Positions 24,092 through 31,583 of a DNA stretch of 31,675 nt are shown here, piece after piece. The number at the start of each line of letters is the position of its first letter. Within the stretch, counting starts at the first letter, position 1. The stretch comes from a virus: the IMG/VR virus record IMGVR_UViG_3300008952_000188, positions 1 through 31,675 of that record; one strand, 5' to 3'. A program made the translations under genes and the position numbers. The notes under the pieces are model-generated. The model worked only from the letters and a program-made list of their open reading frames with translations. It did no database searches and was not told where the DNA came from.

Positions 24092-24619
24092 TTATAATTC
24101 TTCTGGTTTTTTCTTAGGTTTAACTTTCTTATTTGGATGTCTGCGTTTACCATCCCTACCAAATTCCATCCGACCTCTTCGCGGCCTTCGTTGACCACCA
24201 GACCTATTATTAGACATCTTAATTAATTTATCAAATTTTTCCTGTCCTATAACTCGTGTAAGATCTTTAGAAAGTTTTTCAAAAATTTCTTTGTATTCCC
24301 CCTTCGGAATATGTTCCTCTTTAAATGTTAAACCAACCTTTGATATAGATTGTGCAAATATTCTTCTAGCTGCCGTAAAATCTTGTTCATCCAAATCCAA
24401 ACTAAAGGATAATACAAACCACATATTCACATATCGTTGTGCAATTCCTCGTTCTGATCTTAACTGACCAATCCTTTCTCGAAAATTTTCTCTCAACCTA
24501 TTACTATCATCAGTCCATACAGGAGCAGACTTTACAGTAGTTGCTAAAAAAGAAACTAAAATAAGTCCTAATAGTAACCCTGTAATTATACTCACGGATC
24601 TTTTTATACGATTCATCAT
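24092..24619 (-). CDS. Signal-anchored basic protein, function unknown
   Basis: 175 residues. N-terminus MMNRIKRSVS is basic, followed by a hydrophobic segment about 9-30 (IITGLLLGLILVSFLATTV), a signal peptide or membrane anchor. The middle is helical (RERIGQLRSERGIAQRYVNM; LDLDEQDFTAARRIFAQS; EIFEKLSKDLTRVIGQEKFD), loosely like periplasmic Spy/CpxP-type helical proteins, a weak resemblance only. From about 140 it is Arg/Lys/Gly-rich (GGQRRPRRGRMEFGRDGKRR). SD AAGGAG sits before ATG-ATG. The gene is enclosed by the gp32 terminator upstream and the bidirectional terminator downstream, so it must rely on read-through or an unseen promoter. An export-dependent job at the host envelope is inferred. 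Confidence 0.7.
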   Translation of the reverse strand: MMNRIKRSVSIITGLLLGLILVSFLATTVKSAPVWTDDSNRLRENFRERIGQLRSERGIAQRYVNMWFVLSFSLDLDEQDFTAARRIFAQSISKVGLTFKEEHIPKGEYKEIFEKLSKDLTRVIGQEKFDKLIKMSNNRSGGQRRPRRGRMEFGRDGKRRHPNKKVKPKKKPEEL

Positions 24620-24630
24620 TTCTCCTTAAT

Positions 24631-24657
24631 AAAAAAAGGGAGGACTAAGCCTCCCTT
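24631..24657 (-). terminator. Intrinsic terminator after gp32
   Basis: On the minus strand AAGGGAGG and CCTCCCTT make an 8-bp stem with a 6-nt loop (CTTAGT), followed directly by seven U residues (A-tract 24631-24637 on the plus strand). It lies 21 bp beyond the gp32 stop and immediately before the ribosome site of the next gene. Confidence 0.88.
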
Positions 24658-24678: not shown

Positions 24679-25575
24679 CTAAGCTTCCTCAGCTAATTTT
24701 TGGAAATATGATATATTATCATCATCCTGTAACTCAGGGGCCTTTGAGAATTGAACGTCAGAACTAACTTCTTCTTTAGAAGTAACAGGATCAACTGTAT
24801 CTTCTACAGCTTCGAATTGAACTCGATCAGTACCAGACTGAAGTCCCATAATACGTTCAAATTTTTCTTTCAATTCATCATAGGTTTTAAATTTATCCTC
24901 AGCAATCAAATCAGTAAGACTATATTGCTGATTATAAATCTCCTCTAGTTTAGAATCATCTCCACCTAAAAACTCTGAAGTAGGATCAAATTCACTACGA
25001 TCATAATTTACAAATCCGTCTAATGTACGGATCTTTATTTTGAAATCGGCACCTTGCCAGAAATCAAATGGGTTGAGGGGAGTTTCATCTTCAAATTCAG
25101 GATTCATAGATTCTTGAATTTTATCAAAGATTTTCTTCCCATATTTATATAGAAAAACTTTACCGTCATTATCAGGATTAGCTGGATCAGTTATTACATA
25201 AATGTTAGAAACAAATTGTAACTTTCGTTTCTGTTTCCTTGCTTGCTCCTTACCTTGTTCGGTTCCATTATTCCATAAAGAAGTATTAAATTCACTAACA
25301 GGATCTGGAACATTAAGAGTTGTTAAAGAATTCTCAATATACCAACCACCTGGACCTTGAAACCCATGAGAAAAAATTCTAACCCAAGGAATATCTTCAC
25401 CTTCTGGTTGTGGCAAAAATCTAATAACTGCATAACCATTACCTGATTTATCTCTTTCTGGTTTCCATATTCGATCATCATCATATGACTGTCGAGTAGT
25501 TTGAGTTTTCTGAAGCTCACTAGTGAGCTTATCCAAATCTGTTTGACGATTCCGTTTTAAATTCTTAAAAGACAT
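24679..25575 (-). CDS. 32: Single-stranded DNA-binding protein gp32
   Basis: 298 residues (T4: 301). The basic N-terminus (MSFKNLKRNRQTDLDKLTSE) corresponds to the cooperativity domain. The core has NGYAVIRFLPQPEGEDIPWV, FSHGFQGPGGWYIENS, SNIYVITDPANPDNDGKVFL, YKYGKKIFDKIQE, FDFWQGADFKIKI and DGFVNYDRSEFD, closely following T4 gp32. The tail is acidic (PELQDDDNISYF). There is no cysteine in the protein, so the T4 zinc site (three Cys and one His) is absent, as I recall for cyanophage gp32. Role: coats ssDNA in replication, recombination and repair; partner gp59 is the adjacent gene, as in T4. It has its own promoter and terminator; SD AGAGGA. Confidence 0.95.
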   Translation of the reverse strand: MSFKNLKRNRQTDLDKLTSELQKTQTTRQSYDDDRIWKPERDKSGNGYAVIRFLPQPEGEDIPWVRIFSHGFQGPGGWYIENSLTTLNVPDPVSEFNTSLWNNGTEQGKEQARKQKRKLQFVSNIYVITDPANPDNDGKVFLYKYGKKIFDKIQESMNPEFEDETPLNPFDFWQGADFKIKIRTLDGFVNYDRSEFDPTSEFLGGDDSKLEEIYNQQYSLTDLIAEDKFKTYDELKEKFERIMGLQSGTDRVQFEAVEDTVDPVTSKEEVSSDVQFSKAPELQDDDNISYFQKLAEEA

Positions 25576-25655: not shown

Positions 25656-25684
25656 AGTATAACATATTATTCACAGAATGGCAA
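25656..25684 (-). promoter_or_regulatory. Sigma70-type promoter for gp32
   Basis: Minus strand: -35 TTGCCA (25684-25679), 17-bp spacer, -10 TATACT (25661-25656) with an extended-10 TGT directly before it. The -35 overlaps the last codons of gp59. Transcription would start near 25650, leaving about 75 nt of A+T-rich leader with a small hairpin (TAGC/GCTA around 25632-25644) before gp32. The match to the promoter at 28444-28472 supports it. Confidence 0.65.
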
Positions 25685-26261
25685 GTTCTTTTTTTAAAAT
25701 ACCTTTAAATTTTTCGATATCTAAATTAAGAAACTTACCATACTTAGTAATCCTCATTCTCCATTCAGGCCAAATGAGATCATCGTCCAACTGACGATCT
25801 ATTGCTTGGACAAAACCAAGAATTTTATCCAGTATAACAAAAGTTTCAAGACTAATATCTTCCTGATATAAAGCAATTAAAATTATTGCATTATCATCAA
25901 CAACTTTAAACAACTCATCAAAACACTCAACTTTACCAAGCAAAGTATTTATATCAGCCCGAAACACATAAGACAACGACTGAATTCGTTTTTTCCATTC
26001 AGAATAAACTCCTTCAGCATTTTTAATATTGTCTATTCCACCATAGGAATCACCTATTGCAAAATTCGCAATAAGCAATTTCCTAATATCTTCATCCTTC
26101 ATACTCCATGACAAACGATTGAAAAAATGTTTATCCTTTCTTTTTTCAAAGGATTTAACATTTGCTTTCACACCACCGTTGTATTTCACAAAGTCATAAT
26201 TTTCATTAACGAAATGAAGTCTTAATCCCAAATATAATTTGTAGACTTCATACGGTGACAT
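25671..26261 (-). CDS. 59: Helicase loader gp59
   Basis: 196 residues from the ATG at 26261 (T4: 217). Signature: SPYEVYKLYLGLRLHFVNEN, YDFVKYNGGVKANVKSFEKR, KDKHFFNRLSWSM, LLIANFAIGD, then EDISLETFVILDKILGFVQ and ILKKEL at the end, matching T4 gp59 (VYKLYLMIKQHM, YDVIKYN, RDKYFFQKLS, ISFETFILLD). Role: loads the replicative helicase gp41 onto gp32-coated DNA. An upstream in-frame ATG at 26273 exists, but the bases after it spell AGGAG (26270-26266), an ideal SD for the 26261 ATG, so the shorter start is preferred. The gene follows gp33 closely; order 33-59-32 is as in T4. Confidence 0.9.
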   Translation of the reverse strand: MSPYEVYKLYLGLRLHFVNENYDFVKYNGGVKANVKSFEKRKDKHFFNRLSWSMKDEDIRKLLIANFAIGDSYGGIDNIKNAEGVYSEWKKRIQSLSYVFRADINTLLGKVECFDELFKVVDDNAIILIALYQEDISLETFVILDKILGFVQAIDRQLDDDLIWPEWRMRITKYGKFLNLDIEKFKGILKKELAIL

Positions 26262-26265
26262 TTTT

Positions 26266-26270
26266 CTCCT
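26266..26270 (-). promoter_or_regulatory. Ribosome binding site deciding the gp59 start
   Basis: AGGAG on the minus strand, 4 nt before ATG 26261. A longer frame from ATG 26273 would translate this site as Arg-Arg, which argues that the 12-nt extension is not coding. Confidence 0.75.
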
Positions 26271-26530
26271 CATATAGGCAACGTTCCTGTTTTTGGTAGA
26301 AAGTTTAGTTTAATAGCTTCTGCTTCCAATTTTTCCTTTAATGGATTTCCAACCAACTTAGGAACAGATTCTATTTCCAAATTATTATCTTCACAATATT
26401 GCATAATGGCTTCAAGGTATGATATATCATACCTTTTCACATAAATTTCAATATCCTTCATAAACTTCTTGGGATTTGCAATTATACTAGAAACCATTTC
26501 ATATTCTTCATCAGAAATATTAAGTGACAT
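26270..26530 (-). CDS. 33: Late promoter transcription co-activator gp33
   Basis: 86 residues (T4: 112). The middle and C-terminus fit gp33: YDISYLEAIMQYCEDNNLEI (about 34-53), VPKLVGNPLKEKLEAEAIKL (about 56-75), NFLPKTG, comparable with T4 MSYLEATTAFLEENSI and IIEKIQSEAIDENLL. Role: bridges host RNA polymerase (beta flap) and the sliding clamp so that gp55-type late promoters fire in replication-dependent fashion; this fits the late promoter seen at 19135-19148. Its SD appears to be the GGAGG formed by the last two Gly codons of the upstream flagellin homologue, so the two are translationally linked. Confidence 0.85.
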   Translation of the reverse strand: MSLNISDEEYEMVSSIIANPKKFMKDIEIYVKRYDISYLEAIMQYCEDNNLEIESVPKLVGNPLKEKLEAEAIKLNFLPKTGTLPI

Positions 26531-26535
26531 TAAAA

Positions 26536-27429
26536 TTAACCACCTAATAACTGTAGAATACTTCCAGACAATTGTTGTGCTTGAGCCATCAACGCCATCG
26601 TAGTCTGTTGTTGAATTTGCAATTGAGCAAGATTAGCCATTTCTGCAACTTCATCTAAATCTGTAAGTGTAGAAACGGATTCTTCATTCAACTCAACCAT
26701 TGTAGTAAGATGAGAAATTGTAAAATTAAATCTTTCAATTTCTGCAGTCGTACTTGAACGTTCTGTTTCTAACGTAGCAAGGGCCGCATCCAATCTCACA
26801 ATTGCATCTTCTGCAGCACCCTCAGAATCTACATTAGAACTGGCTATAGTAACTGTATCCCCAACAGACCATATTCCACCATTTCCGTTATCCGCACCGA
26901 CTAATGAATGATTTGCATCCAAAACAACATCATGAGTACCAATACCCAATCCTTCTAGAGTTAAATCCCCCAAAGAAATATCAACATTCTGGTCCTCCTT
27001 AGGACCACCAATCGTAACTTCTCTTGTACCAAAAGTTCCATCAAGTAATGAAGTTCCATCATATTCAGTATTAAGAGCTGTCCAATCAATTTCAGATGCT
27101 AGGTTATTATATTCATCAACTAGAGCTGCCCGAGCTACAGATGTTAACTGATCATCTTGAGCTTCATATGCAACCTCTCGCATTTTAACTACAATCGATT
27201 CAACTGAATTGGTTCCTGCAAGCGCAGATTCTAGCAAATCCTGATTTTGCTTAACAATACTATTAGCAGCTTTTAAACTACTAATTCGATTATTAGTCCG
27301 ACTAACTCTAACTTCATCATGTGAACTCAGTTCAGGTTTTCCTGATGCCAATCTCTGCATAGATTCTTCAATTTGTCTAGTCGCTTCCTGATATCTACTT
27401 AACGCTGTTGCAGTAATTCCACTTAACAT
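26536..27429 (-). CDS. Flagellin homologue encoded by the phage
   Basis: 297 residues from ATG 27429, which has GGAG 6 nt upstream; an in-frame ATG at 27447 is possible. Both conserved flagellin ends are present. N-terminal D0/D1: ALSRYQEATRQIEESMQRLA-SGK, RISSLKAANSIVKQNQDLLE, VVKMREVAYEAQDDQLTSVA, DEYNNLASEIDWTALNTEYD, GTSLLDGTF. C-terminal D1/D0: RLDAALATLETERSSTTAEI, RFNFTISHLTTMVELNEESV, AEMANLAQLQIQQQTTMALM, AQAQQLSGSILQLLGG. The central part (about 125-205) is short and beta-rich, like small flagellins with no large outer domains. Known role of flagellin: helical filament subunit secreted by the type III flagellar apparatus. In a phage it could be a virion filament, a decoy or a filament modifier; none is proven. 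It sits between a 70-residue ORF and gp33. Confidence 0.9.
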   Translation of the reverse strand: MLSGITATALSRYQEATRQIEESMQRLASGKPELSSHDEVRVSRTNNRISSLKAANSIVKQNQDLLESALAGTNSVESIVVKMREVAYEAQDDQLTSVARAALVDEYNNLASEIDWTALNTEYDGTSLLDGTFGTREVTIGGPKEDQNVDISLGDLTLEGLGIGTHDVVLDANHSLVGADNGNGGIWSVGDTVTIASSNVDSEGAAEDAIVRLDAALATLETERSSTTAEIERFNFTISHLTTMVELNEESVSTLTDLDEVAEMANLAQLQIQQQTTMALMAQAQQLSGSILQLLGG

Positions 27430-27470
27430 ACAATTCTCCGTTTTCATCTTTCATACACTTTATAAGGTTT

Positions 27471-27683
27471 TTAAACTGTTACATCTAAAATAGAACCCAT
27501 ATTTTTGGGTCCAGTCATCATACTAACATTTTCGTTAGTAGAAATATGTTTCTTCTCTCTTTCGTGAATAGACAACTGAGTTGCCAATTCTGCTCTTGAA
27601 GCCGCCTTTATTGATTGCACCTCCTGAAATACTCGATAATAGTCCATACTGGACATCTTTTGTAATCCGTAAGTATTAATCAT
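27471..27683 (-). CDS. Small protein between tmRNA and flagellin homologue
   Basis: 70 residues with a strong SD (AAGGAGGG, then TAAAAA before ATG 27683), so it is very probably translated. It is helical and polar (YYRVFQEVQSIKAASRAELA, TQLSIHEREKKHI), then Asn/Ser/Met-rich, ending MGSILDVTV. No membrane segment and no cysteine. I recognise no family. Its place immediately upstream of the flagellin homologue suggests a dedicated partner, for example a chaperone, export or assembly factor, or second filament component; this is inference only. Confidence 0.7.
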   Translation of the reverse strand: MINTYGLQKMSSMDYYRVFQEVQSIKAASRAELATQLSIHEREKKHISTNENVSMMTGPKNMGSILDVTV

Positions 27684-27719: not shown

Positions 27720-27952
27720 TCATCGGTGGCCGCCTCACCTTCCTATAATCGCTTGGATCTACTGTAGACACTTGGGATTATAGTAGGGGATTCTGTTGAC
27801 AGGTTCCCCATTGACCCCGGCATCACCTATTAGGCGGCCATGGCGTAATTTATAGTATTGCCTTTTACTTTTGTTATCCTTATTGGCGATAACGACCACA
27901 GGTAATCTCCCCACAACCATTGTCCCATCGGTCGAAATCCATGTACACCCCC
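27720..27952 (-). other. tmRNA coding piece with its helices
   Basis: Begins at G1 (27952). Helices seen: GTTATC/GATAAC (27893-27888 with 27878-27873), in the place of the pseudoknot before the tag. A 9-bp perfect helix pairs the end of the tag (27840-27832) with 27735-27727, like P5 of standard tmRNA. Inside it are GGGGA/TCCCC around CTGT..ACAG, and an 8-bp stem CTATAATC/GATTATAG (27783-27776 with 27750-27743). The 3' end is approximate. Confidence 0.75.
27827..27862 (-). other. tmRNA proteolysis tag reading frame
   Basis: Codons GGC AAT ACT ATA AAT TAC GCC ATG GCC GCC then TAA TAG give the candidate tag GNTINYAMAA, ending like the E. coli tag (NYALAA) with a hydrophobic-Ala-Ala end suited to ClpXP-type proteases. 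The resume codon is assumed to be GGC (Gly), preceded by AAAAGTAAAA; a start one or two codons earlier cannot be excluded. Confidence 0.75.
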
Positions 27953-27956
27953 ATAA

Positions 27957-28016
27957 TGGTGGAGGTGAGGGGAATCGAACCCCTGTCCCTAATGTCAACT
28001 GTTTATGGATCAACAA
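27957..28016 (-). other. tmRNA acceptor piece
   Basis: About 60 nt ending in encoded CCA at 27957, with T-stem, canonical T-loop TTCGATT and the 3' strand of the acceptor stem. The 5' boundary is set only by the end of the preceding gene (stop at 28017-28019) and may lie a few bases either way. Confidence 0.75.
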
Positions 28017-28415
28017 TTACAAGTCCTTAATTCTATTTCTAAGTTCTGTGCTAGACCAACCATGATCTCTACTAAAATATTTAATTGGACCAAGTCCAAA
28101 ACCAGTTATTTCCTCAGGAGACTTATTTTCATAATCAGAACCCAAAAATCTTATGTCCCACTTTATCCATTCTAACCAATTATACAATTCTTCTTCTGTT
28201 TGATATACTAAAATATCATTAACATACTTACAACCTTCAAGTTGAATTTTTCTTTCAAATAAAGACTGAATCGGTTTATTTTTCTCTTTACGATCAACAC
28301 TAGGATCTTCCTGTAACATGACAACTAGTGTATCGCAATTATCTCTACAATCCTTTAAAAAAAGGACATGTCCTGCATGAAATAAATCAAACGCTCCGCA
28401 AGTTATACCTTTCAC
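28017..28415 (-). CDS. Cytidylyltransferase-like nucleotidyltransferase
   Basis: 132 residues from a GTG at 28415 with AAGGG about 8 nt upstream. HxGH signature in ITCGAFDLFHAGHVLFLKDC (HAGH at 13-16), central RKIQLEGCKYVNDILVY, DIRFLGSDYENKS, and C-terminal SSTELRNRI (121-129), the ISSTxIR-type motif. This is the glycerol-3-phosphate cytidylyltransferase/HldE adenylyltransferase superfamily (PF01467). Known reaction: transfer of CMP or AMP to a sugar- or polyol-phosphate, producing an activated donor for surface polymers. CTP versus ATP and the substrate cannot be read. It follows a good sigma70 promoter and directly precedes the tmRNA, suggesting cotranscription. Confidence 0.8.
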   Translation of the reverse strand: MKGITCGAFDLFHAGHVLFLKDCRDNCDTLVVMLQEDPSVDRKEKNKPIQSLFERKIQLEGCKYVNDILVYQTEEELYNWLEWIKWDIRFLGSDYENKSPEEITGFGLGPIKYFSRDHGWSSTELRNRIKDL

Positions 28416-28443: not shown

Positions 28444-28472
28444 ATTATACCATATAAAACTTGAATTGGCAA
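28444..28472 (-). promoter_or_regulatory. Sigma70-type promoter for cytidylyltransferase and tmRNA
   Basis: Minus strand: -35 TTGCCA (28472-28467), exactly 17 bp, -10 TATAAT (28449-28444) with extended-10 TGG just upstream. It lies in the 71-bp gap after the oxygenase gene. The start would be near 28437, about 22 nt before the GTG. It is the best promoter match in the window and shares its -35 and spacing with the gp32 promoter. Confidence 0.8.
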
Positions 28473-30091: not shown

Positions 30092-30760
30092 TTATTCTCC
30101 CTCTCTTATGTAGTAGTCGTCTATTACTTTAGACAATGAATCAGCCCATGTATCACGATGTTCAACAAATACTTGAGGCTTTGCACCATCCACTGTGATG
30201 ATAACAACTAACTGTCTTATAGGTATACCTGTCCGTTCTTCCCACATAATTGCATACCCACAACATTGCATAAAATAACCATATATCCATTCCTTTCTTT
30301 TAACTCGATTAGAAGTCTTAAAATCCACTACTGATAATTCCCCATCAAATTGCCCAACCAAATCTACTCTACCAGCAATTTTCAAATGATCAGAATACAT
30401 AGAAACTTCCTGAGCATACACATCACCAATATAAGTATCTAATATATTTTTGATTGAAGAAAAGGATTCAATCACATTAGGCATAACACCTTCAAATATT
30501 CCTTCTTTATTATTTATGTAATTTTCAATTAAGGTGTGGACAGCTGTTCCTCTTCTGGAAGCAATACCAGAAATTTTATTAGCCTCCTTTTCTCCTACCC
30601 GTTTTCTCCAGTCATCAAGACCCTTTTGTTTTTTGGGATCTGACCCTAAAACAGTAGTTATAGAAGGATAAAAATTCTCACCACATTCATAAAACCTTTT
30701 ACCATCAACATTTTTTGTACTCAAATCAGGTATATCATAATTCAAATGTTTAAAGTTCAT
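30092..30760 (-). CDS. PD-(D/E)XK family nuclease
   Basis: 222 residues from ATG 30760 (MNFKHLNYD), preferred over upstream in-frame starts that would overlap the epimerase by over 100 bp. Catalytic pattern: RRGTAVHTLIENY (H75), AQEVSMYSDHLKIAGRVDLV (E118, D133) and LSVVDFKTSNR (D146, K148), then YGYFMQCCGYAIMWEERTG with the conserved Gln-x-x-x-Tyr-type helix of Cas4/RecB-like nucleases. No 4Fe-4S cysteine set is seen. Known roles of relatives: exonuclease in recombination or degradation of host DNA. The 11-bp overlap with the epimerase end implies coupled translation. Confidence 0.82.
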   Translation of the reverse strand: MNFKHLNYDIPDLSTKNVDGKRFYECGENFYPSITTVLGSDPKKQKGLDDWRKRVGEKEANKISGIASRRGTAVHTLIENYINNKEGIFEGVMPNVIESFSSIKNILDTYIGDVYAQEVSMYSDHLKIAGRVDLVGQFDGELSVVDFKTSNRVKRKEWIYGYFMQCCGYAIMWEERTGIPIRQLVVIITVDGAKPQVFVEHRDTWADSLSKVIDDYYIREGE

Positions 30761-31583
30761 ATTCCCACTCACCCCTTCTAATGTATTCACCATATTCTTT
30801 TGCACCCTCTTCCGTTGTATAAGAAGGTTTCCATCCAAACATATAATTGTTCGTGTTTGAACAAGTATACTTTTGTATATTTTCATGTGGGCAATCTATC
30901 ACTGGAATTTTTTCCCAATCAGGATAAGCATAACTTATAAGAGTTCTAGCATCGGTAGCAACTCCAGTACCAACTTCAAAACTTCCACTTGAAGTCATAT
31001 GTTGAAGTGCATAAACATTTGCACCGACAACATCCGTTATATAAATATAATCCCTAGATAAACCTTTAAACAATGAAAAATTCTTATTCATATAAGCCTG
31101 TAATACAACCGAAGCTATATTTTTTTTATGTTTTTCTCCATGACCAAAGACATTAAAATATCTTAATGCTATGAACTTTGTTTTACTATGATTAAAATAA
31201 GAAAGTCCATAATCTTCACTAACCAACTTAGACCATCCATAATGAGTGTGGGGAAAACCATCATTGCCATATATAGACGAAGTAGAAGAAAATATAAATT
31301 TTGGAACTTCATATTCATACGCAAACTGCATTACTTGTTTCGTCAAATAATAATTATCTTCCCAAATATCAGGTTTCATATATTGAACATCAGTATTTGC
31401 CCCGTTATGAAAAACTCCGTCGATATCTCCAGGTCTAACCAAAGGATCCATCCACAAATTACATAAATCCTGTTTCCATGTTTCCTTTTCTATAGTTATT
31501 ATATCATACCCCATTTGAAGTATTCGTCTTTTAAGTTGACCACCGACAAATCCATTAGTCCCAGTCATTATAATTTTTTTCAT
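30750..31583 (-). CDS. HldD-like NAD(P)-dependent sugar epimerase
   Basis: 277 residues (E. coli HldD: 310). Rossmann start IIMTGTNGFVGGQL with GxxGxxG at 8-14; FSSTSSIYG (about 98-106); catalytic YGWSK (Y115, K119). RYFNVFGHGEKHKKNIASVV then FKGLSRDYIYITDVVGANVY and SGSFEVGTG follow HldD (YFNVYGPREGHKGSMASV, RDFVYVGDVADVN, GIFNLGTG) very closely. Known reaction of HldD: ADP-D-glycero- to ADP-L-glycero-D-manno-heptose. Substrate here is inferred. SD AAAGGAG before ATG 31583. The GT9-like, cytidylyltransferase-like and phosphomannomutase-like genes elsewhere in the window could act in the same glycan pathway. Confidence 0.82.
   Translation of the reverse strand: MKKIIMTGTNGFVGGQLKRRILQMGYDIITIEKETWKQDLCNLWMDPLVRPGDIDGVFHNGANTDVQYMKPDIWEDNYYLTKQVMQFAYEYEVPKFIFSSTSSIYGNDGFPHTHYGWSKLVSEDYGLSYFNHSKTKFIALRYFNVFGHGEKHKKNIASVVLQAYMNKNFSLFKGLSRDYIYITDVVGANVYALQHMTSSGSFEVGTGVATDARTLISYAYPDWEKIPVIDCPHENIQKYTCSNTNNYMFGWKPSYTTEEGAKEYGEYIRRGEWEYEL

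Follow-up and report, generated by a model that had tools for sequence, protein, structure and literature searches.

A predicted flagellin-superfamily protein is encoded in the genome of a T4-type phage, next to a gene for a small helical protein that accompanies it, in the 31,675-nt stretch of viral DNA analysed here (IMG/VR record IMGVR_UViG_3300008952_000188, positions 1 to 31,675; hereafter the window). The flagellin gene, FLAG, specifies 297 aa and occupies 26536..27429 on the minus strand; its 70-aa neighbor, SMALL70, lies 5′ of it on the same strand (27471..27683), between the tmRNA and FLAG. We tentatively favor a reading in which FLAG is a virus-specific flagellin paralog with SMALL70 as its dedicated partner, acting early and as a defective or regulatory member of the host flagellar pathway to halt filament synthesis.

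The Phage Flagellin Gene and Its Predicted Fold

Stop codons interrupt the plus strand of 26536-27429 throughout, and the FLAG open reading frame runs on the minus strand from an ATG at 27429 to a stop codon ending at 26536. The earlier note had placed a 297-residue flagellin homolog at precisely these positions, and Pfam, phmmer, and Foldseek all agreed with it far above chance. The start is preceded by a Shine-Dalgarno GGAG with a 6-nt spacer (GGAGAATTGT; 27430..27439, minus strand), and GGAG or GAGG followed by TTGTATG is kept ahead of it in nearly all relatives. A 303-aa product starting at 27447 is unlikely; the ATG at 27429 is preferred because the GGAG 6 nt before it would sit within the longer gene.

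Profile searches with models of both flagellin ends scored above the curated cut-offs, specifically PF00700 (Flagellin_C; 9.9e-13, 48.7 bits, cut-off 23) and PF00669 (Flagellin_N; 4.5e-9, 36.9 bits, cut-off 26.6). A phmmer search of the PDB recovered 66 distinct sequences at E<=0.001, headed by a flagellin (1.2e-20). Structure prediction pointed the same way: AlphaFold2, given 16 relatives, produced a model (pLDDT 72, with moderate confidence in the terminal helices) that matched solved flagellar filaments in Foldseek (top 8jmv, 7.8e-12, prob 1.00), and the best 50 matches were all flagellins. Helices were modeled at residues 2-29, 36-90, 97-120, and 203-296, and a small region with strands in between. 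By model and alignment, residues 1-120 (27070..27429, minus strand) hold the first three of these as N-terminal D0/D1-type helices; residues 161-200 (26830..26949, minus strand) form a middle that is hypervariable and indel-rich by column conservation; and residues 203-296 (26542..26823, minus strand) form the C-terminal D1/D0 helix, which is better conserved than any other part (model, alignment, and column conservation). With both end domains above cut-off and a predicted D0/D1 helical filament-subunit fold, FLAG is assigned to the flagellin superfamily. It scored below the cut-offs of the NCBIfam flagellin subfamilies, the best being PRK12806 (94.3 bits, cut-off 531) and PRK12802 (93.3 bits, cut-off 332). 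Among PHROGs, one unnamed family, phrog_16088, matched its C-terminal part (6.7e-8), and PADLOC assigned no defence family to FLAG or SMALL70.

Genomic Setting

The flagellin gene sits in a putative minus-strand operon that opens with a cytidylyltransferase-like gene (heptose-1-phosphate adenylyltransferase-like; 28017..28415; PF01467 1.3e-12, phrog_7878 4.2e-33) and continues with a permuted, two-piece tmRNA of alphaproteobacterial type (27830..28017; Rfam RF04321 84 bits, RF01849 52 bits), SMALL70, and FLAG. The gene for the late-transcription coactivator gp33 (26270..26530; PF16805 6.1e-23) follows 5 nt past FLAG, and after it come those for the helicase loader gp59 (25671..26273; phrog_269 1.8e-57) and the single-strand DNA-binding protein gp32 (24679..25575; phrog_224 7.4e-114), and then a terminator-like hairpin (24636..24657), the likely operon end, all likewise on the minus strand. 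ARAGORN found no tmRNA in the window, whereas Rfam detects one. The earlier note had set FLAG between the tmRNA and gp33; both do flank it, but the SMALL70 open reading frame, which went unmentioned there, parts the tmRNA from FLAG.

The same note had called the genome T4-type, as borne out by gp33, gp59, gp32, a gp6-type baseplate gene, and T4-type structural genes. By gp6 and gp59, the nearest named phages are T4-type phages of Pelagibacter, Methylophilales, and Synechococcus. In Methylophilales phage Melnitz-3, the tmRNA, gp33, gp59, and gp32 follow one another as in the window but SMALL70-FLAG is missing, and S-CAM9 has an exonuclease gene immediately before gp33; the pair is therefore read as an addition to a conserved neighborhood.

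Several other genes in the window and in the compared loci (designated by L numbers) were recorded. Directly past gp32, at 24092-24619, the window encodes a 175-aa protein whose N-terminus is hydrophobic and signal-like; the protein matched no Pfam or PHROG family and has a relative at 34% in L077. Besides the cytidylyltransferase-like gene, sugar-related genes of the window include a phosphomannomutase-like gene (990-1691) and an NAD-dependent epimerase gene (30750-31583), and the unassigned 363-aa protein encoded at 1691-2782 looks glycosyltransferase-like by eye; the sugar-related genes might serve to modify a surface protein or a flagellar one. A flagellin gene followed by a cytidylyltransferase-family gene, of which the window's flagellin operon also has one, occurs on Octadecabacter plasmid pOA238_118 (L027 5935-7250), and on the 203-kb Bacillus halotolerans plasmid NZ_CP114067.1 (L054 957-2082) a csrA-like gene immediately precedes the hag flagellin gene. 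The first 40 kb of flagellin-phage contig IMG/VR 3300007513_000054 (L036/L037) contain an ammonium transporter gene (Pfam Ammonium_transp 2.2e-119), possibly a nitrogen-acquisition gene of a T4-type phage. Several phages also share a conserved protein encoded upstream of SMALL70 (L005 3398-4231, L006 170-1003, L007 5714-6556), and Trypsin_2 peptidase was matched by members of a scanned set to which the L007 gene belongs.

Distribution

Relatives of FLAG were found in 25 IMG/VR contigs from 22 datasets at 52-100% identity by an alignment-based scan, a first such scan having given 19 contigs. One independent second contig is 99.96% identical to the window over 8054 bp, and 24 further phage contigs are divergent. 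In the contigs examined, FLAG adjoins gp33-gp59-gp32 or sits a few kb away, L026 being too short to show this. The GC3 of FLAG (19.1) falls within that of the other phage genes of the window (15.8-25.4). A scan of genome contigs returned only L026 (NZCQ01000013.1), a SMALL70-FLAG pair filed under a Candidatus Pacearchaeota MAG, which is most likely misbinned phage DNA. In INPHARED, the sole relatives were two unannotated Listeria records of 3.8 and 6.2 kb, at 27.5% identity. The Pfam content of the longer flagellin-phage contigs included no host-specific gene.

The SMALL70 Partner

SMALL70 lies immediately 5′ of FLAG in all contigs with enough upstream sequence to show it (that of L024 begins inside FLAG), and this adjacency holds even where other genes part the pair from gp33 (L008, L011, L020-L022). 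A scan using SMALL70 relatives alone returned 22 contigs, every one already in the FLAG set; thus, SMALL70 was not found without FLAG. The protein is predicted to form one helix (residues 12-55) with a flexible tail whose end reads GSxLDVxA, and includes the motif THEREKH (model, pLDDT 69). It matched no Pfam or PHROG family, its Pfam matches being at chance level and inconsistent between members. Two candidate identities were rejected at E<=1, with matches in 0 of 13 records each: the flagellin chaperone FlaF (PF07309) and, considered for the GSxLDVxA tail, the putative motility protein YjfB (PF14070).

Identities of SMALL70 and FLAG across 18 phages were weakly correlated (r=0.23). L009 and L068, for example, share 97% identity in SMALL70 and 60% in FLAG, and L007 and L020 share 41% in SMALL70 and 87% in FLAG. 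The two genes stay together but reassort between phages, and because their sequences are incongruent, a tight, sequence-specific complex between the two proteins is not indicated.

Promoters and Timing

An extended -10 sigma-70 promoter-like site (TTGCCA-17-TATAAT; 28444..28472, minus strand) precedes the cytidylyltransferase gene, where the putative operon opens. Total promoter-like matches in the window's own upstream region were not above chance, and it is the cross-locus comparison that carries weight. In the 1 kb upstream of SMALL70 at 14 loci, which are related and hence not independent, exact TTGACA-16/18-TATAAT sites numbered four in the sense direction and none antisense (shuffle mean 0.01), and sigma-70 sites with >=11/12 matches numbered seven and none, respectively (shuffle mean 0.19). 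The T4-type late promoter NATAAATA was absent from the 200 nt upstream of SMALL70 (0/13) and FLAG (0/14), vs. four of six for gp53. In Melnitz, the tmRNA and gp33 have been reported to share an operon, with an early promoter a short way upstream of the tmRNA (PMC9004378). SMALL70 and FLAG are therefore likely expressed early, as we infer from the host-type sigma-70 promoters; because such promoters precede the pair and late promoters do not, a part in early host takeover is favored over one in virion structure.

Divergence and Selection

Phylogenetic analysis of 15 phage flagellins and 18 bacterial flagellins from plasmid records placed all the phage sequences on one side of a single branch (support 100/100, length 1.67). 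In this tree, the phage clade is monophyletic, deep, and distant from the sampled bacterial flagellins; the donor lineage is not pinned down because the bacterial sampling is limited. Of 50 columns conserved in >=85% of the bacterial sequences, the phage family retains 20 and alters 30.

The changes are marked at the N-terminus, where, to the earlier note, the end that serves export seemed retained. That claim is not supported: FLAG is 5 residues shorter there than E. coli FliC, and within FliC residues 1-47, 8 of 11 bacterially conserved columns are altered in the phage flagellins. The (V/I)NTN start and RINxAxDDAAG linker, present in some form in 18/18 bacterial sequences, are absent in 15/15 phage sequences, where the linker region is replaced and carries a 4-column alignment gap; because these motifs are absent, FLAG is considered a divergent subfamily and not an ordinary structural flagellin. 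FliC residues 26-47 have been reported as an export signal, with RINxAxDDAAG lying inside that segment, and alone gave poor secretion in the same study (PMC6337784). The replaced residues are often near-fixed across the phage family (e.g., VKQNQDLL), so the changes reflect a new state held under constraint, as opposed to decay.

The C-terminal D0 helix is retained in the phage flagellins, with a conserved LLxG terminus, and the last 37 residues have the highest conservation of the protein within the family (0.85-0.89). In ordinary flagellins, this helix serves chaperone binding and subunit packing. Conservation falls to 0.32-0.37 at residues 161-200, compared with 0.70-0.89 elsewhere, a position that matches the middle of ordinary flagellins, which forms the exposed D2/D3 domains. 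Close FLAG pairs gave dN/dS values of 0.03-0.15, indicative of strong purifying selection.

Possible Roles

The host flagellar pathway is proposed as the target of FLAG because the gene appears to be early, the packing and chaperone end of its product is kept, the export and linker region is altered, and a small helical partner accompanies it. In the proposed mechanism, SMALL70 and FLAG would be co-transcribed early with the tmRNA and gp33-gp59-gp32 from a host-type sigma-70 promoter, and FLAG, which keeps the D0/D1 fold and especially its C-terminal helix, would enter the host flagellar pathway. There it would occupy flagellin chaperones, export, or translational regulators as a decoy or, alternatively, join the host filament as a dead-end subunit; filament synthesis and motility would in either case stop early in infection. 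We infer that FLAG acts on host flagella, that it inhibits them in preference to enhancing them, and that SMALL70 has a role in this. Put slightly more guardedly still, lytic T4-type ocean phages may carry a two-gene anti-motility module, an early flagellin mimic with a dedicated helical partner, that shuts down or hijacks the host flagellum. Several observations count against the favored reading: both D0/D1 halves are conserved, as also fits a filament-forming subunit; the hypervariable middle resembles surface-exposed filament domains; SMALL70 is unlike any flagellar chaperone or regulator tested; and SMALL70 and FLAG sequences are incongruent between phages.

In the first rival, the host filament takes up exported FLAG and is altered in its surface or mechanics, which might, for instance, mask a flagellar phage receptor or change the swimming of the infected cell. 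The complete two-ended fold, conserved C-terminal LLxG, and hypervariable middle suit this, and a phage-encoded flagellin is known to replace the host filament in Enterobacter (PMC13418256); however, the loss of the INTN start and RINxAxDDAAG linker, no TldR-like repressor recognized near FLAG, and a lytic cycle that leaves less time make it rather unlikely. The host-filament suggestion of the earlier note is close to the favored reading; that note missed SMALL70, the sigma-70 promoters, and the non-canonical N-terminus.

The second rival, somewhat less likely again, is that the flagellin fold is reused inside the infected cell for a non-flagellar role, and the host may be one of the streamlined marine bacteria that lack flagella. 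SAR11 and OM43 are hosts of related isolates, the phage flagellins branch at a distance from the sampled bacterial ones, and Melnitz, with its tmRNA-gp33-gp59-gp32 order as in the window and no SMALL70-FLAG, has csgF/csgG curli-pore genes past gp32 (L061 8273-9561) although its own host lacks curli genes (PMC9004378). No CsgG was found in 13 flagellin-phage contigs, which are fragments, and members of one phage group may carry either flagellin or the curli pore as alternative cargo. However, the retained D0/D1 fold and C-terminal D0 residues are most easily explained by contact with flagellar proteins.

A virion component, with the flagellin fold used for a fibre, a whisker, or a decoration of head or tail, much as the earlier note had also suggested, is improbable and the least likely of the biological readings. 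Flagellins do self-assemble, and the family is conserved with a variable middle as for an exposed protein, but this reading is disfavored by early-type promoters without late ones, by the position of FLAG among the replication and transcription genes of the gp33-gp59-gp32 operon, and by the viral structure models of BFVD, among which nothing was similar to FLAG at E<0.001.

Assembly contamination was discounted already in the earlier note. Nothing was found in favor of contamination, of a chimeric assembly, or of a match by chance; such an origin has next to no probability and is already refuted by the spread of FLAG over viral contigs and datasets, the near-identical independent contig, the divergent phage contigs, purifying selection, and phage-like GC3.

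Comparison With Known Systems

Bacterial flagellins (FliC/Hag/Flj; PF00669 and PF00700) resemble FLAG in their end domains, helix order, filament-like fold, and C-terminal D0 residues (QA near the end and a terminal LxLL), but FLAG is phage-encoded, with the shortened N-terminus and lost motifs described above. The hook-associated protein FlgL (HAP3) also shares the flagellin-type ends, and TIGR02550 matched 7 of 16 family members; however, the FlgL model was much weaker on the family than flagellin models (best 2.8e-9 vs. 6e-31). A natural precedent for how FLAG could act is Caulobacter FljJ, a flagellin paralog reported to form no filament by itself and, together with FlbT, to repress the translation of flagellins (PMC7591256). 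Unlike FLAG, FljJ is encoded on the chromosome, and it shares 49% identity with its structural siblings.

By gp6 and gp59, the nearest named phages include Melnitz, the Pelagibacter phages HTVC008M and Mosig (all T4-type, Kyanoviridae-like), and the S-CAM cyanophages. No description of a flagellin in T4-type phages was found in the literature searched, most subscription journals being outside the search. If host motility is blocked or rewired by the pair, it would represent a viral route to control of swimming in ocean bacteria and would affect encounter rates, chemotaxis, and the use of energy while infection lasts. SMALL70 would then represent a new family of viral proteins that target the flagellar pathway; the question is directly testable in laboratory strains.

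The described phage flagellins that were found are confined to temperate enterobacterial phages, namely FliCP of the lambda-like prophage FRphi of Enterobacter, a large protein with D2-D4 domains that forms working filaments and is paired with TldR, an RNA-guided repressor (PMC13418256). Both FliCP and FLAG are phage-encoded, but FLAG is minimal and divergent, belongs to a T4-type phage, and is partnered by the 70-aa helical SMALL70, with no TnpB-like gene recognized among the window genes scanned. The flagellin of these apparently lytic T4-type marine phages, recovered from 22 datasets and kept by purifying selection alongside SMALL70, is a second and separate case, which indicates that viruses have acquired flagellin on more than one occasion.
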